Assembly: GCA_946885645.1 (NCBI GenBank)
Contig: CAMPGU010000057.1
Span: 1-17,365, forward strand
Reading direction: 5' to 3'
Source: an uncultured Haloferula sp.
GTDB lineage: Bacteria; Verrucomicrobiota; Verrucomicrobiae; Verrucomicrobiales; Akkermansiaceae
Length of the DNA: 17,365 nucleotides
A program made the position numbers and the translations under genes. Below, piece after piece: positions 2,502-17,314 of this stretch; the stretch's first letter is position 1; every line of letters starts with the position of its first letter. The notes beneath the pieces were generated by a model. That model saw only the letters and a program-made list of their open reading frames with translations. It was not told the DNA's origin and searched no databases.

Positions 2502-2936
2502 TCACGGGTTCTCCACGTCTTCCGGCTCCGCGGCTTCTTTTTGCTCTCCCGCACGCAGGCGCGCGGCTTTCAGGGCGGCGTCCTCCGCCCTCATGGAGCG
2601 GATCTCCGCGCGCTCGCGCTCGATTTCCCGGGCGAGCTCTTCCTTCTCCCGCTCGTAATCCTCGCGGACTTTCGCGGGCCGGCCCATGGCCCGGTCGATG
2701 GTGCTCTGGCCTTTCCGCAGCGCCGCGCCGACGGAGAGGGTCTGGCGGGTATCCATTTCGAAGGAGCCTCGCAGCGTCTCGATCTTCTCGCCCAGCACCG
2801 CTTTTACCCGCTGACCCCGCGGTTCCGCCGTCGCCGGCCGGGCGTCCGCCTCCGCAGCCGCCGCCTGCACGAACTTGGTGGCCCAGGTGGCAAAGAGGGC
2901 CGAGGGGATCATCAGGACGGCGAGGATGGTTTTCAT
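2502..2936 (-). CDS. Exported coiled-coil protein, hypothetical
   Basis: The 144-residue product starts MKTILAVLMIPSALFATWATK, a typical signal peptide with cleavage probably after an AAA/AEA site near residue 28. The central and C-terminal part is highly charged and helical. A run of REDYEREKEELAREIERERAE at about residues 91-111 predicts a coiled coil, followed by a Lys/Glu-rich end. The mature protein is therefore probably a periplasmic, elongated helical protein. agaagg lies just upstream of the ATG. The gene is divergent from the zinc-ribbon gene at 3058 and shares a 121-base intergenic region with it. I do not recognise a family and propose no specific role. Confidence 0.65.
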   Translation of the reverse strand: MKTILAVLMIPSALFATWATKFVQAAAAEADARPATAEPRGQRVKAVLGEKIETLRGSFEMDTRQTLSVGAALRKGQSTIDRAMGRPAKVREDYEREKEELAREIERERAEIRSMRAEDAALKAARLRAGEQKEAAEPEDVENP

Positions 2937-2942
2937 CCCTTC

Positions 2943-2970
2943 TCTGTACCATCCCGGCGGCAGGCGTCAA
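2943..2970 (-). promoter_or_regulatory. Possible sigma-70-type promoter for the coiled-coil gene
   Basis: Read on the minus strand, TTGACG (2970-2965) is followed after 16 bases by TACAGA (2948-2943). The -35 is near consensus, the -10 is weak. The -10 lies only about six bases from the ATG, so transcription would be nearly leaderless. Confidence 0.25.
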
Positions 2971-2976
2971 AAAACC

Positions 2977-2986
2977 TTTCCGGAAA
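2977..2986. promoter_or_regulatory. Palindrome tttccggaaa, possible operator between divergent genes
   Basis: A perfect 10-base palindrome lies in the middle of the 121-base intergenic region between the divergent genes at 2936 and 3058. It is a few bases upstream of the putative -35 at 2965-2970. The position would suit an operator acting on one or both genes, but no regulator is identified. Confidence 0.25.
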
Positions 2987-3057
2987 AGCGGTGCGTCCCG
3001 CGGCGGCAGGGCCGGATCGCCCTTGCGCGCGGGCGGCCACCCGGGCAAGGTCCCGGG

Positions 3058-4131
3058 GTGGCGGAGACGGCGACAACAGTGCGGCGATGGAACAGCTTCG
3101 TGTGCCCGGGATGCAGGTTCATTTTCCGGGTGCCGCAGGATCACGACGGGATGGGCGTGGCATGCCCGGGGTGCAAGGTGATGCTGCGCCTGCCCGGGCC
3201 GGACGAGGAGGCGGGCCCCTTGGTGGTTCCCCCTCCGGAGACCGCCGGAGCCGCCTCCGAAGAAGAAGATCACGAAGACCACGAGGAGCACGATCATTCC
3301 CATGAGAAGGAAGGCGGCACCGCACGGCTGATCCTGCTGATGACCATCCCGGGGCTGCTGCTGCTGGGCCTCTTTGCTTGGCTGATGATGCCGGGAAAAG
3401 ACACGCTCGCGGCTCCCCTGCAGGCACCGGCGCTTCCCGCGCCGGGGGCGAAGGATCCCGCCGCCGGGGAGGCTGCACCCCCGCGGAGAGCGAGCGAACT
3501 GGTCGTGCTGGAAGAGACGGCGAGGAAATTCATGGAAGCCGCCACCGTGGACGAGGCGCTGGCGCTGGTGTACCGGCCGGAGGCGGTGAGGCCGAAGGCG
3601 GAGGCTTGGTACGAGGTGCGGCGCTATGAGCCGCCCGGCTTCAAGGGCACCACGGACGAGAGCAGCGAGGTGGTCATCGGGGGGCTCCGGGTCGTCCAGC
3701 TCGGCGTCCGCACGGGAGACTTCGAGAAGAAGGAGCTCGCGCTGGTCGAGACGCCGGAAGGCTTCCGCGTCGTTTGGGAGGCGTGGGCCGGTTGGTCCGA
3801 AATGGACTGGGAAGATTTCCAGAAGCAGAAGCCTACGGAAGGGAAGCTCTTCCGGGTCATCTGCTCGCCGTCGGATTACTACAATTTCGGCTTCAAGGAT
3901 GAAACGGAGTGGATCTCTTTCCGGCTGGATGCGGCCGATGGCGAGCATTCCGTTTACGGCTATGTCCCGGCGGGCAGCCCGCTGGCCGCGCAGCTCCGGC
4001 CGCTGGACGGGGTGGAAAGGCGTGCGGTGATCCTGGCCCTGAAGTACCCGCCGGATAGCACCGCCGACAATCAGGTGATCATCGAGAAGATCACCGGCTC
4101 CGGCTGGGTGGACCTGCTTGCCGAACCCTGA
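3058..4131 (+). CDS. Zinc-ribbon membrane protein with His/acidic linker
   Basis: With a GTG start at 3058 the product is 357 residues. It opens with a zinc-ribbon-like segment, CPGC at 16-19 and CPGC at 36-39. An unusual segment rich in Glu, Asp and His (about 68-84, with EEEDHEDHEEHDHSHE) follows. A single transmembrane helix lies at about 90-111, then a Pro/Ala-rich linker, then a C-terminal domain from about 150 to the end with no motif I can name. The N-terminus is presumably cytoplasmic and the large domain periplasmic. Such zinc-ribbon/TM/unknown-domain proteins are common in Verrucomicrobiota and Planctomycetes (recollection). The frame stays open upstream to 2875, but that extension overlaps the divergent gene and has no feature. 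aagg precedes the GTG; a second GTG at 3079 is an alternative. The next gene starts 13 bases after the stop. Confidence 0.7.
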   Translation: MAETATTVRRWNSFVCPGCRFIFRVPQDHDGMGVACPGCKVMLRLPGPDEEAGPLVVPPPETAGAASEEEDHEDHEEHDHSHEKEGGTARLILLMTIPGLLLLGLFAWLMMPGKDTLAAPLQAPALPAPGAKDPAAGEAAPPRRASELVVLEETARKFMEAATVDEALALVYRPEAVRPKAEAWYEVRRYEPPGFKGTTDESSEVVIGGLRVVQLGVRTGDFEKKELALVETPEGFRVVWEAWAGWSEMDWEDFQKQKPTEGKLFRVICSPSDYYNFGFKDETEWISFRLDAADGEHSVYGYVPAGSPLAAQLRPLDGVERRAVILALKYPPDSTADNQVIIEKITGSGWVDLLAEP

Positions 4132-4144
4132 AGCTCCCGAGCCC

Positions 4145-5521
4145 ATGCCCACTACCTTCGACAAGGCCCAGGAGCTGAACCTGGACCAAGGGATCTACGG
4201 GACCTTCGCCGAGATCGGCGCGGGACAAGAGACCGCCAATTGGTTTTTCCGCGCCAGCGGCTCTGCCGGCATGGTGGCGAAATCCATCTCCGCGTATGAC
4301 ATGACGATGAGCGATGCCATCTACGGCAAGAGCGCCCGCTATGTCTCGCGCCAGCGCCTGCGGCAGATGCTCGACCACGAGTATGGCATCCTGATCGAGC
4401 GGCTGGGGGCACAGCGCGGCGGGAGCACCACCTTTTTCGCCTTTTGCAATACGGTGCGCGCCCGCGGCTATCTGGATACGGGCGAGTGCCACGGCTGGCT
4501 GGGGCTGCGCTTCCAGCTGAAGCCCGGCGATCCGCCCTCCGATATCTACGCGCACGTGCGCCTGCTAGACGCGACGAATGCCGAGCAGGCGGAGGCGCTG
4601 GGAATCGCGGGCGTGAACCTGATCCATGCCGCCTTCCGCCACCGCGGGCACCTGGGAGCCTTCGTGGCCTCCCTGGTGGAGAACCTGCGGCCGTACCGGG
4701 TGGAGGTGGACATGTTGAAATTCCACGGGCATGGCTACGGGTTCTTCGACAACCGGCTGTGCTCGCTGGCGCTGGTGGAGGCGGGGCTGACGGAAGCGGC
4801 TATGTTTCTGCCGGACGGCGAGGTGGTGCAAGCGGCGGAGGCCCTCTACAAGCGGCCGATCCTGCTGCTGCGCGGGAGCTTCGATCCCGTGACGCGGCTG
4901 CATTTGCAGATGATGGCGGAGGCGCGCGGGGTTTTCACCACCAGTCTGGAGCCGGGCGAGGAGCCGCGCACGATCGAGCTGTGCGAGATGACGATGGCGA
5001 ACCTGTTGCGCGGCTCGGCGGTAGATCACGTGGATTTCATCGACCGTTGCGATGCGCTACAGGCGCTGGGGAAGACGGTGCTGGTGTCCCGCCACGCGGA
5101 ATTCCACCGGATCGCCGCGTACGTGAGCCGCTCGACGGAGCGGCCGATCGGCATCGTCCTGAGCATCGGCCTGCTGAACGAGCTCTTCAAAGCGAAGTGG
5201 TCGGAGAATCTGGCGGGCGGCCTGCTGGAGTCCTTCGGCCGGCTCTTCAAGAACCAGGTGACGCTCTACGTGTATCCCTGGCGGAACCGCAAGACGGGCG
5301 AACTGGTGGATGCGAAGAGCTTCGTGCCGCCGGAGGATTCGCGCAGCCTCTACAAGTATTTCCTGGAGACGGGGCGCGTGCGCGCGGTGCCCGTGGGGGA
5401 CGAAAGCCTGCTGCAATTCACCGGCCGTGACATCCAGGGGATGATCTCCGCCGGGGGCGAGGAGTGGAAAAAATATGTTCCCTCCGAAGCACACCGCTCG
5501 GCGATGCACTTGCACGAGTGA
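4145..5521 (+). CDS. Conserved uncharacterised protein (family often mislabelled as TonB receptor)
   Basis: The 458-residue product starts MPTTFDKAQELNLD. It carries a strongly conserved N-terminal block, IYGTFAEIGAGQE (about residues 18-30), then AKSISAYDMTMSDAIYG and YVSRQRL-MLDHEY. A central stretch reads NRLCSLALVEAGLTEAAMF and LLLRGSFDPVT (about 240-250). From memory these blocks define a widespread soluble bacterial family, seen for example in cyanobacteria. Its members are often annotated as TonB-dependent receptor or nicotinate-nucleotide adenylyltransferase. Neither name fits: there is no signal peptide, beta-barrel or plug, and no HxGH nucleotidyl-transfer motif is seen. Function is unknown. 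ATG 4145 is preferred over 4118 because the family blocks start there and the longer form overlaps the upstream stop. It is probably in an operon with the zinc-ribbon gene. Confidence 0.8.
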   Translation: MPTTFDKAQELNLDQGIYGTFAEIGAGQETANWFFRASGSAGMVAKSISAYDMTMSDAIYGKSARYVSRQRLRQMLDHEYGILIERLGAQRGGSTTFFAFCNTVRARGYLDTGECHGWLGLRFQLKPGDPPSDIYAHVRLLDATNAEQAEALGIAGVNLIHAAFRHRGHLGAFVASLVENLRPYRVEVDMLKFHGHGYGFFDNRLCSLALVEAGLTEAAMFLPDGEVVQAAEALYKRPILLLRGSFDPVTRLHLQMMAEARGVFTTSLEPGEEPRTIELCEMTMANLLRGSAVDHVDFIDRCDALQALGKTVLVSRHAEFHRIAAYVSRSTERPIGIVLSIGLLNELFKAKWSENLAGGLLESFGRLFKNQVTLYVYPWRNRKTGELVDAKSFVPPEDSRSLYKYFLETGRVRAVPVGDESLLQFTGRDIQGMISAGGEEWKKYVPSEAHRSAMHLHE

Positions 5522-6176: not shown

Positions 6177-9100
6177 CTATGGCTGGAGGACGATCCGATA
6201 GAACTGCGTCGAGGGTCCCGCCGTCACCGTGTGGCTCGTAGTCGTCGCGGGCGAATCGGCGGCGGGGACGGTCGCAAGCAAATCCCAACCGAGGCTGAAT
6301 GACCCCGTGGACTGTATCTGATAGGAGTTCCCCGGAATGCTTGGCCAGGTGAGCAAGAACTGGCTCGCATTGAGCGGTGTGATCGTGGCGGCGAAGCGCG
6401 ACGCGCCGCTGTTGGGAAGCGTGCCAGCAAGCAGTTCGGCGGAGTTGTTTTGTCCGTCTCCGTCCGGGTCGTCTGCCGGTCCTTGGGTGAGATTGCCGAA
6501 GTTCGAGACTTCCCATGAGTCCGGCAGGCCATCCTCATCGGTGTCGTCAATCACGAGGTCGACCCGCCCCGTCACGGCGGTGGATAGATGGGCGGCGGGC
6601 CCGTCGGGATTTTCTGCTAGAGTCGCAGTTCCGCTCAGGGTCCCGCCGTAGGTGAAGAGCGGGTAGCGCCCGAAGCCGCTGCCGGGTGCGAGGCTGACCT
6701 GCAAGGTGCCGCCTAGCGCGAGGTCACCGGTGACTGCGACGAGGTCCGACGAAGCGCCGCCGCGCAAGCGCGTGAGGGAGGTGCCGCCGAGGAACATGCT
6801 GCCCTGCACCGTGAGCGTTCCCGGTGTCCCGGTGACAAAGCCGCGGCCGTCGGTGGTGCCGTCGGAGATGAAGTCGGAAGCTACCTTGCCGTAGCCGTAG
6901 AAGAAGGCTCCGCCGGCGATATTCGTGGCATCGGTGGTGAGGCTGCCGCCCTCGATTTTCAATGCGGCTCCGGGGAATACCCGGGTGGCAGTGGCGCTGG
7001 TGAAATTGCCGCTGAGCCGGAGCGTGCCTTGCTCGACATTGGTGCCGCCATTCCAGGCGCCGGATCCGCTGAGGGTCCAGGTGCCGGTACCGGTCTTGAT
7101 GTAGGTCGTGGCGGTTGCCGTGTTCTGTTCCGCTATCGTCCCGGCGAAGGTCGCATCGGTGTTTTTTCCTCCGATGCGATACGTTAGCGCCCTGCCGCCC
7201 GTAGCCCCGCCTTGGAGCAAAGAGAGGGCAGTGCCCGAGACAGCGCCGATCGGAATGGCGGTGCCTGCTCCTTCGGCGAGGATGCCAGTGTAATAGGCCG
7301 AGACCTTGTCCGTGAGGGCTATCGCTGCCTGCGGAAAGCCGGGAAAGCTATAGCTGGTGCCCATCCGGAAGTCGCCGCCTCCTGCATCAGTGAGAACGTT
7401 GATCGTCCCGGTAAAGGCCGACCAATCGGCGAAGAGCGTGGTGCGCACCCACGGCACGTAGAAATTCAACGTGCCGGCACCCGCGAGAGTGCCATGCACG
7501 TCCACGCGCGAGTCGGCATTGATGCTCGCGGTGGCTGCTGCGGGCACCACGAGGGCGGCGGTGAAGCTGTTGAAGGAGTTGTCCTCATCGAACATCGAAA
7601 GCACGCCGGCGTTGAGGGTGACCGGACCGGTGCCGAGCGCGCCGGCATTCGCGGTGTCGTTGGCAAGGGCGATGGTTCCGGCGTTGAGGGTGAGGCCGCC
7701 GGAAAAGGTGTTCGCCGTGGTGTTGGCGAAGGTCAAGGTGCCGCTACCGTTCTTGGTCAGAGCGGCGTTTCCGCCCAGCGACCCGGTCCCGCCGATGGTG
7801 TAGCCGAGCGCCGTCGTTACTGCTGCGGTGCGCGGGGCGACGGTGCCGGAAAGCGTCACATTCCGGGTGGCGGCGGTGTCGTCCAGTGACACGTCGTCGT
7901 TGTTGTAAAACTTGTCGGGTGTCGCGCCGGTCCAATTGTTCGCGGTCACGGTATCCCAGGTGCCGTTGGCGGCACCGGTCCAGGTGAGCGTGGCGGGATT
8001 GCCGGTCACGGTGAGCCAGACCTTCGAGGGATTCGATCCCGCGGGGCTGCGGCCGAGTGCGAAGGTTTGGCGCGAGTCGTTGGGGAGATTGTGGGTGAGC
8101 GAGACGCCGTTGATCGTGCTATTGGTCGCGCCGGTAATCAGGTCGTAGGTTCCGGCCTGGAGCGGGCCTTGCAGCAGCAGGAACTGGAAATGCTGCGTGC
8201 CCGTCATCGCCAGCGTCCCGCTCATGGTGATGGCGTCGTTGCCTGCGCCGGGCGTGTTCGCCATGTCGAAGTAGAGCGTGTTCCCGCCGAGCGTCAGGCC
8301 ATTGTTGGCCACCAGCGTGGCACCGGTGAAGGGCACGGTGCCCGGGGAAAGGAAGGCGCCGGCATTCGCGGTGATCGGCCCGGCGAAGCTGCCATCGCCG
8401 CCGAGCAGTGCGCCACTGGCGACGGTGACGGCCGTATTTCCGAGGCTGCCATCGACGAGCAAGCCCCCTTGGCTGACCGCGGTCGCGCCGGTGTGGCTGC
8501 CGGTGCCGCCGAGCGTGAGGGTGCCTGCACCCGTCTTCGTGATCGAGGTGGTGCCGCCGCCATTGGTGATGCTCCCGGAGAAGACGGTGGAGCTACCGTT
8601 GCCGCCGATCTGATAGTGGGTCGTGGTGGTATTGCCGCCGCCGGATGCGCCGGAAAGCGTGGTCCCCGCTCCGCCGGCAAGTCCACCGAGAGGGATGGCT
8701 GACGTAATGTTGCTGCGCTTCGATAACGAGGTGGTGCCGTTGCCGAGATGGAAGGTGGCAGCCGCGCTGCCGGCGCTGCCGAAGATGCGCACGGCGCTGT
8801 TTCCTGTGAAGGTGACCGTGCCGGAGTAGCCGCTCATGTCGCCCTCCAGGTCGAAGACATTAGTCTGCTGGATGGTCAGGGGCGCGCTGCCGGTGAGCAC
8901 GCCGAGGCCATGCGCGCCGCCGCCATCGCCGCCGGTAATGGTGGCCGGTCCGGCGATAGTGGTGGCATTGCCGGGATCGGTGGCTCCCATGTTCAGGGTG
9001 CCCCTTTCGATACGCAAGGGGCCGTTGCCGATGGAGGAACTATTGCCGAGCGTGAGCGCACCGCTTTCCAAGGTGACCGCGGAGAAGGAATTGGCACCGC

Positions 9101-11063
9101 TATTGGCGAGAGTGAGCGTGCCGGTGCCGCGCTTGACCAGCGGGCCGCTGCTGGCGATCGAGCCGGTGCCGGTGGTGCTGTAATTGCCGGCAGCATCGAC
9201 GTCCACCGATGCGGGCGAGACGGTGCCGGTCACATTGATGGCCGGCGTTTTCGAACCGCTGTCATCGAAGGCCACGCGATCGCCGAAGCTGAAGGCGGTG
9301 GCGGCGCCATTGCGCGACCAGTTATTCGTCGCGCTGTCCCAGGCGTTCGACGCGAGGCCCCCTACCCATTTCAAGTCGCGGGGCAGGCCGGCATTGGTCA
9401 CCAGCAGCGCGCAGGTTTGCGTCCACGAATGCCCGGCGGCATCGGTCACGGTGAAGTCGAAGCGGGCGCGGCCGACGTGATTCAGCGTAGGCGTGAAGGT
9501 GACGAGGTGATTGCCCGGGCCGCTCTGGGCAATGCCGCCGCCGGAGATATTGGAGACGCTGAAGGCCGGCGAGACCTGGAAGCCGGAGGTGAATTTCTGC
9601 AAGTCCACCTGCACGCTGGTGGGCTCGCTGGCGGTGTTCTTGGCCACGGTGCCGTGCGGGATCGCGAGGAAGTGCAGGTACTCCTCCAACCGCGTGTAGC
9701 CGGCAGGCGTGGCCGCGGGCATGAAGGTGGTGCCGGTGAGGAAACCGCCGCTATTCGCCAAGACCGCATTGTGATCCTGTGCGGCGGGATTCCAACCGAG
9801 CGCGGACTCATAGTAGTCCGGCATGCCATCGAGATCGATATCGAGCGGCGCGGCGGTGGCGTTGAGCGTGCCAATTCCGCCATTGCTGACGCCCGCGAGG
9901 TCGGACTCCCGCGTGATGTGGTTGGCAGTCTGGTTCACGAGGTTCTGGACCAGGCGGGTGTCCACTTCATCGCGCAGCGGCTTGGCGGGATCGATATCAA
10001 GCCGCAGCGCGCCGGACTTCGAGACGACTTTCTTGAAGGCGAGCAGCGGATCATCGGTGGTGACCGGGATCGAGCCGGTATTCGCGAAGGGCGCGAGCGC
10101 CTTCACGTAGCGGTTGGCCCCCACCGGATCACCGGCCTGGAATTCCGATCCGGCGACGATGGAGTAGCCCTTGTCGGTACCGTTGAGAATGCCGTCGCCA
10201 TCGCTGTCGTGACGGTTGTTGGAAAGATGGACGGAGAAGTTCGGGTTGCCATTGCGATCCACCGTGGCTTTTTCCAGCGCTTTAGAGCGGGTATTGCCGG
10301 GCGGGCTGAGGAAATAGTTCCCGATCACGTTCGCCTTCCAGGAGGCGGGCGTTTCCGAGTCGCCCATGATGAAGCCGATGTCCCAGTCGAAGGTTACGTT
10401 ATTGGTCCATTCCAGCAAACCGGACGGTCGTGCTTTCGGATTGCGGGTGTGATTGTGCGCCCACAGCGAGTGATGGCAGGTGGCGTGGTTCTGGTCCCAC
10501 AGGCCTCCGCACGAGTGGGACTCGAGGCCCCACGCGTTGAGCGACCATTGCATGGTCAGGTTCTCCGGCGGGCTGTTGAAACTGGAGAAATTCTCATCGG
10601 TCGAGAACTGCATCGAAACCGAGTCGAGCACGCTGTTGATCGAGCCGCTGTCGAGATTCACGCAATCGCCGCCGCTGCCGGTCTTGCGATGGCGGAAGCG
10701 CAGGTGACGCACCACCACGTCGTCGCCGGAAATGCGGAAAGTACCATCGACCAGGCCGACGCCGTCACCCGGCGCGGTTTGGCCCGCGATGGTGACATTC
10801 GAGCCCACCAGACGTAGGCCATTAATGTGGATGTGGCCGCTGACCGCGAAAACGATGGTACGGCCGGCCGCGGGCACGGTTTCGATCCCATAGCGAAAGG
10901 ATCCCGGGATGGAGGAGCCGCTCAGGTTGGTCACGATGTACACGTCGCCGCCGCGTCCGCCCTTCGAGTAGCCGCCATACCCTTCCGCCCCGGGAAACGC
11001 GGGGATCTGTGCGGCGGCTGGAAGAACGGCGCATAAACAAGACAGGGATAAGCGGCGGATCAT
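6177..11063 (-). CDS. Giant secreted pectate-lyase-like protein with PATR repeats
   Basis: The 1628-residue product opens with a signal peptide (MIRRLSLSCLCAVLPAAAQ). Residues 22-285 carry a pectate-lyase family 1-like beta-helix signature: AFPGAEGYGGYSKGGRGGD, TIAGQTAPGDG (91-101), VVRHLRFRH (117-125), STDENFS (154-160) and HNHTRNPKARPSG (203-215). Asp-rich calcium-loop-like segments follow at 286-292 and 408-415. From about 560 on there are two modules of the W-D-x-x-T-x-N-W type and at least four PATR stretches of the form K-x-G-x-G-T-x-T-L. The last about 120 residues hold a TSP3-like DTDEDGLPDSWE and DDPDGDGQN segment and a beta-rich end, FYRIVLQP. No C-terminal barrel or clear PEP-CTERM anchor is seen. 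Likely role: cleavage of pectin-type polysaccharides outside the cell (inference). Large antisense frames here are GC shadows. No Shine-Dalgarno site is visible. Confidence 0.85.
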   Translation of the reverse strand: MIRRLSLSCLCAVLPAAAQIPAFPGAEGYGGYSKGGRGGDVYIVTNLSGSSIPGSFRYGIETVPAAGRTIVFAVSGHIHINGLRLVGSNVTIAGQTAPGDGVGLVDGTFRISGDDVVVRHLRFRHRKTGSGGDCVNLDSGSINSVLDSVSMQFSTDENFSSFNSPPENLTMQWSLNAWGLESHSCGGLWDQNHATCHHSLWAHNHTRNPKARPSGLLEWTNNVTFDWDIGFIMGDSETPASWKANVIGNYFLSPPGNTRSKALEKATVDRNGNPNFSVHLSNNRHDSDGDGILNGTDKGYSIVAGSEFQAGDPVGANRYVKALAPFANTGSIPVTTDDPLLAFKKVVSKSGALRLDIDPAKPLRDEVDTRLVQNLVNQTANHITRESDLAGVSNGGIGTLNATAAPLDIDLDGMPDYYESALGWNPAAQDHNAVLANSGGFLTGTTFMPAATPAGYTRLEEYLHFLAIPHGTVAKNTASEPTSVQVDLQKFTSGFQVSPAFSVSNISGGGIAQSGPGNHLVTFTPTLNHVGRARFDFTVTDAAGHSWTQTCALLVTNAGLPRDLKWVGGLASNAWDSATNNWSRNGAATAFSFGDRVAFDDSGSKTPAINVTGTVSPASVDVDAAGNYSTTGTGSIASSGPLVKRGTGTLTLANSGANSFSAVTLESGALTLGNSSSIGNGPLRIERGTLNMGATDPGNATTIAGPATITGGDGGGAHGLGVLTGSAPLTIQQTNVFDLEGDMSGYSGTVTFTGNSAVRIFGSAGSAAATFHLGNGTTSLSKRSNITSAIPLGGLAGGAGTTLSGASGGGNTTTTHYQIGGNGSSTVFSGSITNGGGTTSITKTGAGTLTLGGTGSHTGATAVSQGGLLVDGSLGNTAVTVASGALLGGDGSFAGPITANAGAFLSPGTVPFTGATLVANNGLTLGGNTLYFDMANTPGAGNDAITMSGTLAMTGTQHFQFLLLQGPLQAGTYDLITGATNSTINGVSLTHNLPNDSRQTFALGRSPAGSNPSKVWLTVTGNPATLTWTGAANGTWDTVTANNWTGATPDKFYNNDDVSLDDTAATRNVTLSGTVAPRTAAVTTALGYTIGGTGSLGGNAALTKNGSGTLTFANTTANTFSGGLTLNAGTIALANDTANAGALGTGPVTLNAGVLSMFDEDNSFNSFTAALVVPAAATASINADSRVDVHGTLAGAGTLNFYVPWVRTTLFADWSAFTGTINVLTDAGGGDFRMGTSYSFPGFPQAAIALTDKVSAYYTGILAEGAGTAIPIGAVSGTALSLLQGGATGGRALTYRIGGKNTDATFAGTIAEQNTATATTYIKTGTGTWTLSGSGAWNGGTNVEQGTLRLSGNFTSATATRVFPGAALKIEGGSLTTDATNIAGGAFFYGYGKVASDFISDGTTDGRGFVTGTPGTLTVQGSMFLGGTSLTRLRGGASSDLVAVTGDLALGGTLQVSLAPGSGFGRYPLFTYGGTLSGTATLAENPDGPAAHLSTAVTGRVDLVIDDTDEDGLPDSWEVSNFGNLTQGPADDPDGDGQNNSAELLAGTLPNSGASRFAATITPLNASQFLLTWPSIPGNSYQIQSTGSFSLGWDLLATVPAADSPATTTSHTVTAGPSTQFYRIVLQP

Positions 11064-11537
11064 GGGGTCGTGCGGGGCGGGGCTTCGGGAGCCGCCCGAG
11101 ATTATTCAAAATGGTGCCCGGCGGCTTGTCGGTGCGAGCCGGCGAACTTGGGCCGGAGCTAGGACTGAGGAACTCGGAGCGATAATGCTCTCGCTCCAGC
11201 TCCAGGCCCAAGCGAACTTACCGTCGTTACCGGTGATCGCAAATTGCTGAACTGCGCGTTTCTTTGCGATGAGGCCGCCCCCGGTGTGGAGAATCGCGAG
11301 TGATTTGGAGACGGGGAACTGTAACGGCATGGATTCCGATGATTGAACGAAAGTTCCGTGCCCGCCAGTACCACGAAGGAGGTAGCCGCGGCCTCTTTTG
11401 AGGGGTTCATTGCACTTCTTCCTCTCTCGGCATTCCGGGAGGAACTTCCGGCGTCCGGTCGGGGGAGCCTTTTGCCCGGGGAACCTTCGTGGAATAAAGA
11501 AAGGTGTAACGAAAGCCCCGGCTGCCGTTACATCATC
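11064..11537. other. Intergenic region between divergent lyase gene and sigma factor
   Basis: This 474-base stretch separates the minus-strand lyase gene from the plus-strand sigma factor. It contains a long stem-loop (11147-11212, separate entry). I see no RNA gene. The plus frame from 11343 stays open into the sigma factor but has no conserved feature, so I take it as leader. Both genes' promoters should lie here. No clear -35/-10 pair was found, which fits ECF-type control but does not prove it. Confidence 0.5.
11147..11212. repeat. Long stem-loop flanked by 8-bp direct repeats
   Basis: cttgggccggagct (11147-11160) pairs with agctccaggcccaag (11198-11212) with a single bulged A, a 14-bp stem. 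Inside, ggagcg (11176-11181) pairs with cgctcc (11192-11197). The sequence gcgaactt appears on both sides (11142-11149 and 11212-11219), overlapping the arms. It could be a small insertion with target duplication, an RNA leader structure of the lyase transcript, or a regulator binding region. Confidence 0.55.
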
Positions 11538-12131
11538 ATGATGAGATCGAAACCCACGCCCCCGGACGAGGTCCTTCCGGACGCCGGACTAATCGAGCGC
11601 GCCCGACAGGGAGAGGAGGCTGCTTGTTCGGAATTGGTGGCGCGCCATCTGGCACCGGTGCGGGCGTTCGTGGCGATGCGCTTGCCGATCGGCCATGTGG
11701 TGGATGAAATCACTCACGAGACCTTCGTATTCGCCTTCACCCACCTTGCGGAATTCGAGCTGCGCGAATCGTTCCGGGCCTGGCTGCGTTCCATCGCCTT
11801 CAATCTCGTCCGCCGCGAGCTGCTGCGATTCGCGCGCGAGCGGCAGAATCTCTCGAATTTCGAGAGACTGCAGCTCTCGGAGCTTGCGGACAATGCTGAC
11901 CAAACCGGCTTGCGCGATGAGGTGGTATTTCTCGAGGAATGCATGGGTCGCCTGCCGGATACGATGCGGCAATTGCTTGAAGACCGCTATCATCGCGGTC
12001 TCACGGGGGTCCAAATTGCGGCAAGCCGGGGCCGCACCGAGGAATGGGTGCGGGTGACGCTGTTGCGGATCCGCCGCCAATTGCGGGACTGCATCGATCA
12101 CAAGATGACGGGAGGGGCGCATGCTGTCTGA
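11538..12131 (+). CDS. RNA polymerase sigma factor, ECF-like (Rhodopirellula/Verrucomicrobium type)
   Basis: From the ATG pair at 11538/11541 the product is 197 residues. Region sigma2 spans about residues 15-90. It includes a typical start LIERARQGEEAACSELVARH and the -10-recognition stretch DEITHETFVFAFTHLAEFE, ending in FRAWLRSIAFNLVRRELLR. Region sigma4 (about 130-185) carries RLPDTMRQLLEDRY and a helix-turn-helix VQIAASRGRTEEWVRVTLLR. There is no sigma3, as in ECF factors. The pattern fits the family recalled as TIGR02989. The last 11 bases overlap the start of the next gene, an operon sign with translational coupling. An in-frame extension reaches back to 11343 but looks unconserved. 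Likely role: directing transcription in response to an envelope signal relayed by the downstream protein. Confidence 0.85.
   Translation: MMRSKPTPPDEVLPDAGLIERARQGEEAACSELVARHLAPVRAFVAMRLPIGHVVDEITHETFVFAFTHLAEFELRESFRAWLRSIAFNLVRRELLRFARERQNLSNFERLQLSELADNADQTGLRDEVVFLEECMGRLPDTMRQLLEDRYHRGLTGVQIAASRGRTEEWVRVTLLRIRRQLRDCIDHKMTGGAHAV
12111..12120 (+). promoter_or_regulatory. Strong Shine-Dalgarno inside the sigma factor gene
   Basis: ggagg followed by ggcgc lies immediately before the ATG at 12121 and inside the end of the sigma factor frame. It supports coupled translation of sigma factor and anti-sigma-like protein and fixes the start of the latter. Confidence 0.6.
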
Positions 12132-13626
12132 CGAGAAATTGGCGGAGTATCTGAGCGGGGTGCTACCGCGGCAGGAGCGGCTCCAGGCCGAGGAGCAATT
12201 GCTATCCGATCCGGACGCGCGCCGGGAAATCCTGAACCAGCAACGGATCAGCGCAGCCCTGAAAGCATTGCACGCGACAGACCGTGCCCGGATGACCGAC
12301 GCGATTCTCGCGGCGACACGAGGGACGCGGGAGGCCCCGCAAGTGAGGAGGCTCCGGAAGGTCCGCTCGCTGTGGTCGATACGGGCCTTGGCGGTGGCGG
12401 CGGTACTGGTTTTGTGCGCTTCCCTTTACTGGCTCGTGATCCCGCGGGAAGCGGCACGGGTGAGCCGGGAGATTGCCGCGGCGTGGGATGGTGCCGCGCC
12501 GGTGGCCGGCAGGCCCTTGCGGCCGGGCTGGCTGAAGCTGCAGAGGGGCGCGGTGGAACTCGAGTTCTCTGGCGGGGCGAAAGTCACGGTGGAGGGACCG
12601 GCGGAACTTCAATTGATCTCCGGGAAGGAAGCCTTCCTCCGCAAGGGCAGGTTGCGGGCCATGGTGCCCGCAAGAGCCCGGGGATTCACGATCCGCGGCG
12701 AGGGCTTCGCGGCGGTGGATCTGGGCACGGAGTTCGGGGTCATCGCGGGAGATTCGCCGGAGGTGCATGTCTTCACCGGGAGCGTGGAGTTCCGGGGAAG
12801 CTCGCGCCGGATGTTGAAGAAGACCGAAGCGGTGCGGATCTCCGGCGGCATTGCGGAGAGCATTCCTGCGCGGCCGGAACTTTTCGCGGATGCGAAGCGG
12901 CTGGCGGCGCTGGAGATAGCTGCGGAGCTGGACCGACATTCTTCGGCGATCGCGCACTATGATTTCATCAAGGATGGCGCGCACTTGCATAACCGCGTGA
13001 GCGGAGCGGACCTGAAGGAGAAGGTAGTGGGATGCCGCGGCGTGGAAGGCCGCTGGCCGGGAAGCGAGGCCTTGGAATTCGGTAGGGAAGGAGACCACGT
13101 GAGCGTGACGCTTCCGGACGAGCTGAAGTCGCTGACGCTGTTGGCATGGGTGCGCGTGGACCGCCTGCCCGAGGTGCAGGGCTCCCTGATGATGGGCAGC
13201 ACGGAACTTCCCGGCGATGTGCACTGGTATGTGCACCAGAACGGATCCGTAGGCTTCGCGGTGGTCGGCGAGGAGGGCGAATGGCAGCCGCTCCATGGCC
13301 CGTCGGTTTTCCACAGGGCGAACCTGGGACAATGGAGGTGCATGGCCGCGAGCTTCGATGGCACCACCGGATTGGTGACCCATTTCCTGGATGGCAAGGC
13401 CATCGCCTCGCAGCCGATCGGAACGAGAGGCCCCTTGAAGCCCGGCATCGTGCAGGTGGGGAATTGGGCCCTGCGAGAGGGAGATCGGCTGCTTGCATCG
13501 AGGGAGAAAACGAGTCCCAAGGATTTCCGGCGCGCCTTGCAAGGTCGCATCGACGAGCTGGCGATTTTCTCCAGCGCGCTGAGCGCTGCGGAGATCCGGC
13601 GTCTGTCGGAAGCAGGTAAACCCTGA
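12121..13626 (+). CDS. FecR-type anti-sigma/sensor membrane protein with LamG domain
   Basis: The 501-residue product has three parts. Residues 1-80 form a soluble helical N-terminus (LAEYLSGVLPRQERLQAEEQ), probably the sigma-binding domain. A single TM helix lies at about 88-106. Beyond it, a FecR-like domain (about 112-250) carries LKLQRGAVELEFSGGAKVTVEGPAE and FAAVDLGTEFGV. A LamG/concanavalin-like domain (about 277-498) ends in GRIDELAIFSSALSAAEIRRL. The topology places the LamG domain outside the inner membrane, where it could bind carbohydrate. The gene overlaps the sigma factor by 11 bases, the classic cis arrangement. Role, inferred: binds the sigma factor and releases it on sensing a glycan or envelope signal. 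A matching open frame on the minus strand is a GC shadow. Confidence 0.85.
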   Translation: MLSDEKLAEYLSGVLPRQERLQAEEQLLSDPDARREILNQQRISAALKALHATDRARMTDAILAATRGTREAPQVRRLRKVRSLWSIRALAVAAVLVLCASLYWLVIPREAARVSREIAAAWDGAAPVAGRPLRPGWLKLQRGAVELEFSGGAKVTVEGPAELQLISGKEAFLRKGRLRAMVPARARGFTIRGEGFAAVDLGTEFGVIAGDSPEVHVFTGSVEFRGSSRRMLKKTEAVRISGGIAESIPARPELFADAKRLAALEIAAELDRHSSAIAHYDFIKDGAHLHNRVSGADLKEKVVGCRGVEGRWPGSEALEFGREGDHVSVTLPDELKSLTLLAWVRVDRLPEVQGSLMMGSTELPGDVHWYVHQNGSVGFAVVGEEGEWQPLHGPSVFHRANLGQWRCMAASFDGTTGLVTHFLDGKAIASQPIGTRGPLKPGIVQVGNWALREGDRLLASREKTSPKDFRRALQGRIDELAIFSSALSAAEIRRLSEAGKP

Positions 13627-14028: not shown

Positions 14029-15162
14029 ATGAAGACAAAGAAGCTGTTGATCCAAGCACTCCTCGCCACAGCGGTCCTCCCGTTGCAGGCGGAGATCCTG
14101 AAATTCGACATCTCGCCCGCCGGCAGTAGTCCCGCTACCGGCTTGAGCCCCGCCAACGAAGTCCCCGCTGCCACGGGGACCGGAAGCGGAGGAGAGATCC
14201 TGGCCGGCATCACCTACGATACGGATAGTAATCTGCTCTCGCTACCGATCGGCTACGGCTCGTTCGGGGGCTTTACCAACCTGAGCGGACCTGCCACGGC
14301 CGCGCATATCCACGGTCCCGCCCCGGCGACGGGGACTGCTGGTCCGATCCATGATTTTTTCACCGCCGTCCAGCATCTGGCCGCACCGATCCCGGGGGAC
14401 GGCGGAGTGATCATCGGCTCCGTAGCGCTCAGCGACGCCGACGAAGCGAGCCTGTTGGCCGGGCAGCTGTACGTGAACGTGCACACCGCTGCCAATCCCG
14501 ACGGGGAAATCCGCGGCCAACTGGTCCAGGCTAGCGGCGAGCCCACGGTGACCTGCCCCGAGGAAACGACGGTGGAGTGTACCTCCCACGAAGAAACGCC
14601 GGTGGAGCTGGTCGCCCGGGTGGAGGACGCCGAGGGTGACTCCCTGGTGGTGGTCTGGACGATCGACGGAGTGGCCCAGCCCGAAATCGAAGTTCCTTCC
14701 GGCGGCACTACCACCAGCGAGGAAGTCCCCTTGGAGGTGGACCTGGGGCTTGGCGAGCACACGGTATCCGTTTCGGTCTCCGACGGGACCAACGTCGCGG
14801 TGAGCTGTGAAACTACCGTCACCGTGGAAGACACGGTAGCGCCCGAGATCAAGAGCATCGAGGCTGACCCCGCGACCCTCTGGCCGCCGAATGGGAAGAT
14901 GAAGACCGTGAACCTGACGGTGGAAGCCGAGGATGCCTGCGGCGAAGTAACCACGGAGATCGTCTCCGTTACCTCGAGCGACGGTGGAACCACGGATTCC
15001 GTAATCGTTGATGAAGATACGGTCCAACTGCGGGCGAAACGCGCCGGCAACAGGGAACGCACTTACACGATCACCGTGGAGGCAACGGATGAATCCGGCA
15101 ACACGGCCACCGACACCGTGGAAGTGAAGGTGCCGAAGTCCAGAGGCAAGAAGCGCCGCTGA
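14029..15162 (+). CDS. Exported CHRD-domain protein with Ig-like repeats and basic tail
   Basis: The 377-residue product starts MKTKKLLIQALLATAVLPLQAE, a signal peptide cleaved probably near residue 21. Residues about 22-168 match a CHRD-type domain: AAHIHGPAPATGTAG near 91-105, LYVNVHTAANPDGEIRGQL near 147-165. Residues about 172-268 form an Ig/HYR-like module (TVTCPEETTVECTS). Residues about 272-366 hold a second module with the recurring ATLWPPNGKM motif (283-291) and RTYTITVEATDESGNTATDT. The end is basic, KSRGKKRR. Secretion across the inner membrane is likely; the function of CHRD modules is unclear. The gene follows the sigma/FecR operon and could be a target of it (inference). An 8-bp-stem terminator lies 23 bases past its stop. 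Confidence 0.8.
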   Translation: MKTKKLLIQALLATAVLPLQAEILKFDISPAGSSPATGLSPANEVPAATGTGSGGEILAGITYDTDSNLLSLPIGYGSFGGFTNLSGPATAAHIHGPAPATGTAGPIHDFFTAVQHLAAPIPGDGGVIIGSVALSDADEASLLAGQLYVNVHTAANPDGEIRGQLVQASGEPTVTCPEETTVECTSHEETPVELVARVEDAEGDSLVVVWTIDGVAQPEIEVPSGGTTTSEEVPLEVDLGLGEHTVSVSVSDGTNVAVSCETTVTVEDTVAPEIKSIEADPATLWPPNGKMKTVNLTVEAEDACGEVTTEIVSVTSSDGGTTDSVIVDEDTVQLRAKRAGNRERTYTITVEATDESGNTATDTVEVKVPKSRGKKRR

Positions 15163-15435: not shown

Positions 15436-15804
15436 ATGATGAAGAGAATTTCCCTTCTTCGCTCCTTGGTCGCGCTTGTCCTTTCGATCGCAGGTGTTTC
15501 GTTGTCGCAGGCTGCGGACCCCGGCAGGGAGGAAGCGCGGATCGAAGGCCTGATTGCGCATGTGAAAAACCTGCAAGACGCGGCCTTCGTCCGTAACGGC
15601 AAGGAGTACGATGCTGCGACGGCCGCCAAGTTCCTGCGCGGGAAGTGGAACGCCAACCGGGACGATATTCACACGGCGGAGGATTTCATCGCAAAGGCGG
15701 CCACGAAGTCCTCCACCACCGGCAAGGCCTATATGATCCGGTTCAAGGATGGCAAGGAAGTGGCCTGCGGGCCTTACCTCGCCGGGCGTTTGAAGAAGAA
15801 GTAA
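15436..15804 (+). CDS. Exported small protein, DUF5329-like
   Basis: The 122-residue product starts MMKRISLLRSLVALVLSIAGVSLSQAAD, a signal peptide with cleavage near residue 26. The mature part carries IEGLIAHVKNLQDAAFVRNGKEYDAATAAKFLRGKW, TAEDFIAKAATKSSTTGKAYMIRF and a basic end. These blocks match my memory of the DUF5329 family, small periplasmic proteins of unknown function. aaggtgg lies upstream of the ATG pair at 15436/15439. It is followed by the phospholipase D-like lipoprotein 79 bases downstream, possibly one transcript. No catalytic residue can be named. Confidence 0.75.
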   Translation: MMKRISLLRSLVALVLSIAGVSLSQAADPGREEARIEGLIAHVKNLQDAAFVRNGKEYDAATAAKFLRGKWNANRDDIHTAEDFIAKAATKSSTTGKAYMIRFKDGKEVACGPYLAGRLKKK

Positions 15805-15859
15805 CGGCGCACTTCCGGGAGCCGGCACGCGGGGTCATCCGAAATCCGTTTGACGCGTC

Positions 15860-15878
15860 CGCATCGACCGGCGATGCG
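15860..15878 (+). promoter_or_regulatory. Hairpin next to the start of the phospholipase D-like gene
   Basis: cgcatcg (15860-15866) pairs perfectly with cgatgcg (15872-15878) around accgg. It ends five bases before the ATG at 15884, where a ribosome site would be expected, and no Shine-Dalgarno is visible. It could restrict translation initiation or be a weak processing site. Confidence 0.35.
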
Positions 15879-15883
15879 TTAGA

Positions 15884-17314
15884 ATGCTTGCCTTCAAGGT
15901 GCTACTGCTGACCGCGGCCCTCGCTCTGGTCCCTTCTTGCGGCGACCTGACGCGCAATTACCGCTACCCGTCGGGACTCCGCAAACCGGAGGCCGGCAAG
16001 GGGATGCCCATGATGAAGTTCGGCTCCAGCCTGGCGCGCGGCACCGTTCTCAGCCTGGCGCGGCGGCCGGGGAGCACGGTCCGCATCGGCGGGGTGGTGC
16101 TATGGCAGCGGCCGCGGCAGCTCATTGCGGGGAATTTCCCCGGGGCACGCGAGTTCCGCTACGCGCCGGAGCAGGCGCCCGGGGGCGATGGATTCGAGAT
16201 GCTGCTCGACGAAAAACGCCTGCCTGCGCCGGTGCCGGGAAAGGTGACCTGGCTGGTGGATGGAAAGCGTTTCTTCCCGGAGTTCCAGCGGCAGATCGCC
16301 GCGGCCCGCCGCTCGATCGACGCACAGGTCTACATATACGACAACGACGACATCGCCGTGCGCTATGCGGACATCTTGAAGAAGCGCTCCGCGGAAGTGG
16401 ACGTAAGGGTGATCTTCGACGACCTCGGCAGCTCCACCTCCGCAGCCTTGCCGCCGGAAACGCCTTTCCCGCCGGGCTTTTCGCCGCCGCCGAGCATGAG
16501 CCGTTATTTCCGCGACGGGTCGGGCGTGGAGGTCCGCTCGATGCTGAATCCATGGCTCGTCTGCGATCATACCAAACTCCATGTCTTCGACGGGCAGATC
16601 GCGCTGATGGGCTGCATGAACATCGGCCGCGAATATTACAGCGAGTGGCATGACCTCATGTTCCGCGTGGAAGGCCCGGCGGTCGCAAAGCTTCAGGAGG
16701 ACTACAACCATACCTGGCGCCGCGCGGATCCGCTGGGCTTCTTCGGGGTTTTCCAAAAGAAGCCGGTCGTGGAGCCGGTACCCGCAGTCCCTGGCGAGGT
16801 GCCTCTCCGGATCCTGCGCACCGATCCTGCGGCAGGCCGCTACGAGATTCGCAAGGCCATGCTGCTTGGCATCCGCGCCGCGCGGAAGCGGATCTGGATC
16901 GAAGACCCCTACGTCGCCTACGACGACATCACGGAAGCGCTTCAGGATGCCGCACGCCGCGGTGTGGATGTGCGGCTCGTCTATCCCGGTCGCAACGATT
17001 CCAAGATCATGGATCTCGCCAACCGTGCCTTTGCGGACAAACTCGTGAAGGCCGGCGGCAAGGCCTACGCCTACCCGGGGATGACCCATCTGAAGGTGAT
17101 GATCTGTGACGGCTGGGCCTGCGTGGGTTCCGCCAATCTCGACACCCTGAGCATGCGCATCAATCGCGAGCTCAACCTGTGCTTCCGCGACCGCGGCCTG
17201 GTGGACGGACTCATCCGGCAGGTGTTCGCGCCCGACTTTGCACGGGCGAAGCCGCACGCCAGCGGACGTGCCGCCCTCGCGCCGATCGCCGAGGCGATAG
17301 CGGACCAGCTCTAG
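15884..17314 (+). CDS. Phospholipase D/cardiolipin synthase-like lipoprotein
   Basis: The 476-residue product begins MLAFKVLLLTAALALVPSCG. VPSC at 16-19 is a plausible lipobox with Cys19, so lipidation is likely. Two HKD motifs are visible. The first is HTKLHVFD with H229, K231 and D236, followed by MNIGREY. The second is HLKVMICD with H402, K404 and D409, followed by GSANLD. Both copies keep His, Lys and Asp, so the enzyme should be active. The family includes cardiolipin synthases and phospholipases that transfer or hydrolyse phosphatidyl groups via a phospho-His intermediate. Substrate cannot be told from sequence. No multiple N-terminal TM helices are present, unlike classic cardiolipin synthase, so an envelope-anchored periplasmic form is inferred. 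It follows the DUF5329 gene. Confidence 0.8.
   Translation: MLAFKVLLLTAALALVPSCGDLTRNYRYPSGLRKPEAGKGMPMMKFGSSLARGTVLSLARRPGSTVRIGGVVLWQRPRQLIAGNFPGAREFRYAPEQAPGGDGFEMLLDEKRLPAPVPGKVTWLVDGKRFFPEFQRQIAAARRSIDAQVYIYDNDDIAVRYADILKKRSAEVDVRVIFDDLGSSTSAALPPETPFPPGFSPPPSMSRYFRDGSGVEVRSMLNPWLVCDHTKLHVFDGQIALMGCMNIGREYYSEWHDLMFRVEGPAVAKLQEDYNHTWRRADPLGFFGVFQKKPVVEPVPAVPGEVPLRILRTDPAAGRYEIRKAMLLGIRAARKRIWIEDPYVAYDDITEALQDAARRGVDVRLVYPGRNDSKIMDLANRAFADKLVKAGGKAYAYPGMTHLKVMICDGWACVGSANLDTLSMRINRELNLCFRDRGLVDGLIRQVFAPDFARAKPHASGRAALAPIAEAIADQL

Follow-up and report, generated by a model that had tools for sequence, protein, structure and literature searches.

A putative two-way promoter between an ECF sigma factor/FecR-LamG unit and a giant pectate-lyase-like gene in an uncultured Haloferula species

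Planctomycetota and Verrucomicrobiota encode many extracytoplasmic function (ECF) sigma factors, and to our knowledge most targets and signals of these factors are not known. In the FecI-FecR-FecA systems of Escherichia coli and Pseudomonas, an ECF sigma gene is followed by the gene of a FecR-like regulator that sits in the membrane with its N-terminus in the cytoplasm, and the SusC/SusD polysaccharide loci of Bacteroidetes use FecI/FecR-type control. Here a stretch of 17,365 nucleotides from an uncultured Haloferula sp. (contig CAMPGU010000057.1), referred to below as the window, was analysed. It contains an ECF-type sigma gene, followed by the gene of a FecR-LamG membrane protein, and a giant pectate-lyase-like gene in divergent orientation (Table 1). 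On the reading that we favour, and consider somewhat more probable than not, the locus is an autoregulated ECF sigma/membrane anti-sigma unit with a two-way promoter that has captured the lyase. The E. coli FecR is placed in anti-sigma group AS243 in the text of PMC7406223.

Table 1. Positions of the features of the locus, numbered from the first nucleotide of the window
Feature	Position	Strand	Basis
Very large (1628 aa) pectate-lyase-like protein carrying PATR repeats, divergent from sigma	6177..11063	-	Pfam, NCBIfam, PDB match
Decayed remnant similar to the C-terminus of a GDSL/SASA acetylesterase	11142..11426	- (lyase strand)	tblastn
Palindrome TGTAACG-N14-CGTTACA, candidate two-way ECF promoter	11505..11532	both	TGTAAC, 15-nt spacer and CGTTA on each strand
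ECF-type sigma-70 factor, 197 aa	11538..12131	+	ATG 11538; alternative start ATG 11541
Membrane anti-sigma-like FecR-LamG protein, 501 aa	12121..13626	+	Domain scans, AlphaFold model, fold search
Probable single membrane helix, residues 85-106	12373..12438	+	AlphaFold helix; hydrophobicity by eye
LamG/concanavalin-A-like domain, Pfam span residues 331-492	13111..13596	+	PF13385

By its sequence, the sigma protein belongs with the ECF sigma factors, and its nearest family is TIGR02989, the Rhodopirellula/Verrucomicrobium sigma family. Sigma70_r2 (28.7 bits) and Sigma70_r4 (28.9 bits) both exceeded the Pfam cut-offs, and no other sigma region was found. TIGR02937 was matched with 61.7 bits (cut-off 42.9), and the matches in the PDB were ECF sigma factors, the best being CnrH (E = 3.9e-11). 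A first-pass annotation of the DNA had called the protein TIGR02989-type; this was indeed the top NCBIfam family, but the score of 114.5 bits was below the curated cut-off of 124.55, and by that criterion the protein is not a member. In the list of open reading frames (ORFs), the sigma ORF ended at 12131 and the FecR-LamG ORF started at 12121, in agreement with the 11-base overlap given in that annotation.

The membrane protein had likewise been described as FecR-type with a LamG domain. The LamG domain was recognised above the cut-off (PF13385, 52 bits), whereas the FecR part was visible in the modelled architecture and scored slightly below the cut-off of 24 bits (PF04773, 22.0 bits). Residues 7-113 of the N-terminus partially matched an anti-sigma model, with 29.8 bits where the cut-off is 100 (E = 5.6e-7). 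The AlphaFold model, calculated with 36 sequences (mean predicted local distance difference test score 86.8, predicted template modelling score 0.71), was composed of four N-terminal helices (residues 4-69), a further helix (residues 85-106), a FecR-like beta domain (residues ~112-249), and a LamG domain (residues ~273-500). Judged from sequence and model, the N-terminus is probably cytoplasmic and probably holds the sigma factor. The fold search informed mainly on the LamG domain and barely covered the FecR-like and N-terminal parts. Its matches to LamG included domain 4 of the arabinanase AbnA (an entry whose title begins 'in complex with arabinot'), which was tied with other lectin-like domains; matches to neurotoxin and sialidase lectin-like domains were set aside as reflecting the common jelly-roll.

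By analogy, the unit may work like FecI/FecR signalling, yet it was not classed there because no TonB transducer was recognised in the window and the FecR score was below the cut-off; the fusion of LamG to FecR is a further difference. The window resembles the Bacteroidetes SusC/SusD loci in that an anti-sigma pair stands next to an enzyme active on polysaccharides, and differs from them in that control of the enzyme is a prediction and that scans of nine window ORFs with Pfam and NCBIfam recognised no TonB transducer, SusC or SusD. The earlier remark that no TonB transducer was visible therefore holds for these ORFs. The two-gene order and the domains are those of the ECF sigma/FecR-LamG pairs of Planctomycetota and Verrucomicrobiota, whose membrane proteins carry the database names 'FecR domain-containing' or 'LamG-like jellyroll fold domain-containing protein'; the window differs from these pairs by its divergent lyase and by a promoter-like motif mirrored on both strands. 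PSCyt genes in Verrucomicrobia are treated in PMC5615132, where the legend of figure 8 lists Laminin_G_3 among carbohydrate-binding modules and the terms 'sigma' and 'FecR' are absent from the main text. FecR-LamG sigma pairs of these phyla were not found among the titles and abstract beginnings listed by searches of an open-literature library, which is not a claim of their absence from print.

The pair was compared with its relatives by a profile scan of genome contigs with an alignment, in which the best 80 of at least 536 confirmed FecR-LamG relatives became the 80 loci studied; an earlier scan of genome contigs with a single FecR-LamG sequence as query had confirmed no relative. In 79 of the 80 loci a sigma gene was located on the strand of the FecR-LamG gene and within 700 bp of it, and the window pair is a unit of this kind, its sigma gene adjoining the FecR-LamG gene on the same strand. 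The commonest offsets from the sigma gene to the FecR-LamG gene, -4 (n = 19) and -8 (n = 11), suggest translational coupling, and larger overlaps are exaggerated because the ORF starts were set mechanically. At the protein level, the scoring of 7998 candidates listed 118 relatives with E<=1e-3, the closest of which (P0002-P0007) showed 53-79% identity. Eight genomes contained 3-15 matches each. Over 35 lyase-bearing genomes, 442 FecR-type matches were obtained (zero in one genome; no more than 42 candidates were scored in each, and part of the matches span the FecR region alone), and FecR-like matches reached about 30 in a single genome. A plasmid search with the FecR-LamG protein gave two weak partial matches. 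Closer pairs were not found at E<=1e-70 in 18 genomes of the genus of G122, one of the genomes with the nearest lyases, or at E<=1e-65 in 260 genomes of its family; among the matches listed for two orders, the best FecR-LamG identity was 41% (386 genomes) and 42% (213 genomes), with few candidates per genome scored in the larger groups. On these comparisons, the window pair is a member of a large family that occurs in multiple copies in Verrucomicrobiota and Planctomycetota.

The neighbours of the pairs were varied. The first downstream gene was on the same strand in 54 of the 80 loci, and among the 52 such genes within 400 bases (cut to 560 aa) PSCyt1 was found in 26 and DUF1549 in 24. The first upstream gene was divergent in 34 of the 80 loci, and no lyase was among the 25 families, of 26, that were listed for these genes.

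The DNA before the sigma genes of 89 relatives (87 unique) and of the window was rich in a few promoter-like motifs, from which three classes were written by eye: class A, TGTAAC-N15-[CG]G[TC][TA]A; class B, TGTCCGG-N12..15-GTGAGATA; and class C, TGCTAAG. In 75 loci, with the sites from which the patterns were drawn included in the counts, class A had seven sites and class B 11, all within 120 nt upstream of a sigma gene (0.026 and 0.04 expected, respectively). A looser form of class A gave 11 sites, nine of them in this position, and class C gave 26, four of them in this position. The uniform class-B arrangement, about 40 nt before sigma, was observed in 11 loci (L005, L006, L008, L009, L011, L012, L022, L024, L030, L047, and L053), several of which are from Prosthecobacter. 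With the -10 element widened by one base, the window contained exactly two class-A sites, arranged back to back, one at 11505 on the forward strand toward sigma and the other at 11532 on the reverse strand toward the lyase. A reverse copy accompanied a forward one by chance in 0.8% of simulations.

Class C was also found in reverse. The reversed form, CTTAGCA, was located within 200 nt upstream of sigma in eight of the 87 unique loci (0.26 expected), which are partly kin, and six of the eight also carried the forward form. In the seven of the eight that were inspected (all but L029), the divergent gene that it faces encodes DUF1501 (three cases: L001/L118, L003, and L119), a PEP-CTERM-like protein (L126 and L129, near-copies recognised by eye with no Pfam match), an exported protein recognised by eye (L128), or a lyase (L127/L177, genome G254). 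A TSP3-type protein is among the divergent exported proteins facing this motif. In G254, TGCTAAGT precedes the lyase ORF by 41 nt and the sigma anchor by 35 nt. As far as the motifs indicate, two-way motifs facing a divergent exported protein are recurrent in the family.

The lyase itself matched PelZ (NF041900) partially, through N-terminal residues 15-208 (E = 5.3e-21). It shares the N-terminal pectate-lyase-like domain with PelZ-type proteins, and differs from them in its score (74.9 bits against an equivalog cut-off of 840) and in the fusion of this domain to four PATR-type stretches and a weak TSP3-like C-terminal part. The PDB 'pectate lyase' 9buj was matched with an E value of 5e-24. 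The lyase of G122 was 81% identical over 1633 alignment columns, and a search of two orders with the lyase N-terminus at E<=1e-40 gave matches in five of 213 genomes of one and 41 of 386 genomes of the other. Class A was absent from both strands of 60 lyase loci (1.67 Mb), where the looser form occurred twice.

Linkage of lyase and pair was examined around 45 distinct close lyases (the tree rows minus the window), some of them on short contigs with cut flanks. Because single sequences served as queries for the sigma and FecR genes (E<=1e-5), a distant pair could have escaped notice. A sigma/FecR-LamG pair was found beside the lyase in three of the 45 cases, G254, G412, and G243 (contig C62). 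The lyase of G254 was divergent from the pair in a window-like layout with matching motifs on both sides, and in G412 and G243 the lyase ORF was directly downstream of the FecR-LamG gene, at about 25 and 39 bp, respectively. When the trees were compared, the FecR-LamG proteins of G412 and G254 clustered together (with one further protein), as did their lyases, and the window and G243 cases fell elsewhere. The label 'beside a pair' changed four times on the FecR tree (the starred branches force four) and three times on the lyase tree (two forced), and the adjacency probably had three origins. The near-related FecR-LamG proteins and lyases of L115 (G412) and L127 (G254) come from genomes of two orders and differ in orientation, which may point to transfer.

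The origin of the window arrangement was indicated by the DNA between the two genes. The lyase had been annotated as immediately divergent; the orientation is correct, but 474 bases separate the start codons used here for the lyase (11063) and sigma (11538), and an esterase-like remnant lies among them. In tblastn, the remnant was matched by the esterases of G122 (E = 2e-7) and G070 (E = 7e-8). Four of five esterase queries scored 35.8-45.1 bits, against a best of 25.0-28.1 bits in 1000 dinucleotide shuffles, and the fifth (G301) gave no match to the window remnant. The window lyase clustered with those of G122, G361, and G301 with a Shimodaira-Hasegawa-like approximate likelihood ratio test (SH-aLRT) value of 99, and in these three genomes a gene matching the G122 GDSL/SASA acetylesterase (Pfam) is directly upstream of the lyase on the same strand. 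An esterase gene was present within 160 bases upstream on the same strand in 10 of the 45 lyases. When the upstream region of the window lyase was compared by blast with those of 15 other lyases, the matches comprised only the esterase-coding stretch of L169, L170, and L172 and hits of 12-17 nt. The esterase-lyase order is probably ancestral in the window lineage. The adjacency of lyase and pair looks secondary and recent, because the esterase-like stub sits between lyase and sigma and the nearest lyase relatives stand without a pair.

These observations can be joined into a mechanism. The cytoplasmic N-terminus of the FecR-LamG protein would hold the sigma factor, and a periplasmic or envelope signal on the FecR-LamG part would free it. 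The free sigma factor would transcribe its own operon from the TGTAAC-N15-CGTTA promoter at 11505-11530. The 28-bp palindrome would offer an identical promoter leftwards, from which transcription would run across the esterase stub to the lyase. Ancestrally, the lyase would have stood behind an acetylesterase gene, and loss of most of the esterase would have placed it before the promoter of the sigma unit, an event of regulatory capture. Autoregulation of the sigma unit is probable, and its control of the lyase plausible, because two class-A sites face both genes and three of the 45 lyases adjoin a pair in arrangements compatible with joint control. An arrangement of a sigma unit with a neighbouring exported target also fits, because the reversed motifs face DUF1501, PEP-CTERM-like, and other exported proteins. 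The first-pass claim that the sigma factor turns on the lyase is kept here as a prediction, to which the two-way motif and the three linked lyases lend support and which the pairless nearest relatives of the lyase oppose.

Several findings, in addition to the counting of source sites among the motifs, weigh against this mechanism. The -10 element of the seven class-A sites was [CG]G[TC]AA, whereas that of the window is CGTTA, and the strict form has no match in the window; because [TA] was admitted at this position after the window had been seen, the class-A numbers describe rather than test. Six of the seven class-A loci are from Planctomycetota. The exact palindrome was found in none of the 386 genomes of the order, contrary to a conserved element, and a transcript running leftward would have to carry a leader of about 430 nt. 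With 1.1 kb per gene assumed, the base-rate probability of at least three linked lyases among 45 was 0.002 to 0.035, depending on the assumed number of pairs, and that of at least two, with G254 and G412 taken as a single event, was 0.02 to 0.16; the adjacency is mildly above chance. When the label was shuffled on both trees, no clustering emerged (values as low in 500 of 500 and in 165 of 500 shuffles). No pair was found in the fetched flanks of the G122, G361, and G301 lyases. The check proposed with the first-pass annotation, whether such pairs sit beside lyases in other genomes, gave three cases among the 45 lyases, and no lyase homologue was found in the 80 related pair loci (flanks of at most 10 kb, often shorter). 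Unrelated neighbours, which that annotation had named as refuting its model, are what the genomes of the family at large show, and a small subset is the exception.

Some of these points would be expected if lyase and pair were simply adjacent, an alternative to which we give a lesser but real chance. The sigma unit would then regulate itself and distant targets, and the lyase would have come to lie beside it after the esterase loss, with its own promoter or silent. The pairless nearest relatives of the lyase, the stub as the mark of a junction that is not ancestral, and the lack of a lyase in the 80 pair loci agree with such an origin. The two-way class-A motif, the linkage in three other genomes and the lyase ORF, which is open through 1628 aa, speak against it. 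The intergenic stretch between lyase and sigma also contains no sigma-70 promoter or terminator pattern, a weak point because only 0.1 and 0.7 were expected by chance. Scans of the window DNA for Rfam families, tRNAs, sigma-70 promoters, and terminators gave no matches.

A reading compatible with adjacency alone, and one that we regard as unlikely, takes the palindrome as an operator for a dimeric regulator or as an RNA hairpin instead of a two-way ECF promoter. The perfect 7+7 inverted repeat has the usual form of an operator, and its absence from the 386 genomes suits this view, but its spacing and most of its letters fit the promoter-like class that precedes the sigma genes of the family. 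Still less likely is the stronger form of the regulatory model proposed by the first-pass annotation, in which a plant-type glycan, bound by LamG on the outer side of the inner membrane, would release the sigma factor to turn on the lyase, as a lectin-sensing version of SusC/FecR control. It draws on the LamG domain, the AbnA match, and the four genomes, counting the window, in which a lyase adjoins such a pair, but AbnA was tied with other lectin-like domains, and the same FecR-LamG architecture stands beside genes of several other kinds, among them PSCyt1/DUF1549, DUF1501, and PEP-CTERM-like genes. The idea of a sensor specific for plant glycans and dedicated to the lyase found no support, with the neighbours of the pairs varied (most often PSCyt1/DUF1549 downstream), the nearest lyase relatives pairless, and the stub marking the adjacency as secondary.

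The remaining genes of the window were also inspected. About 400 bases downstream of the FecR-LamG gene, a CHRD-domain protein with weak Ig-like matches, probably exported, is encoded on the same strand (14029-15162), and a DUF5329 protein and a cardiolipin-synthase-like PLD protein are encoded on one strand at 15436-17314. Two overlapping genes at 2926-4131 and 4118-5521, with no Pfam or NCBIfam match at E<=0.01, co-occur in G361, G243, and G254. The protein of the second gene (4118-5518) was 82-83% identical in G361 and G122 and 71-72% identical in G254 and G243. In the grouping used, G122, G361, and G243 form one genus, in the same order as G002, the Prosthecobacter metagenome-assembled genome of L005. 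These identities place the window in Verrucomicrobiota, probably within or close to this genus. Direct and inverted repeats around GTCCCCGGACAC occupy positions 1-900, and perhaps represent an intergenic repeat element.

To return to the autoregulated unit with its two-way promoter, a wider picture can be put forward tentatively. Many paralogues in Verrucomicrobiota and Planctomycetota might perform surface signalling through one membrane protein without a TonB transducer, with a lectin-like sensor carried on the anti-sigma factor; some might drive a neighbouring exported protein from a back-to-back promoter, and gene loss might capture targets like the lyase. Through the motifs, some FecR-LamG sigma units can be linked with candidate targets next to them, and these links can be tested through transcript-end mapping. 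The esterase stub suggests a route by which a gene that loses its old upstream partner may come under a new regulator.

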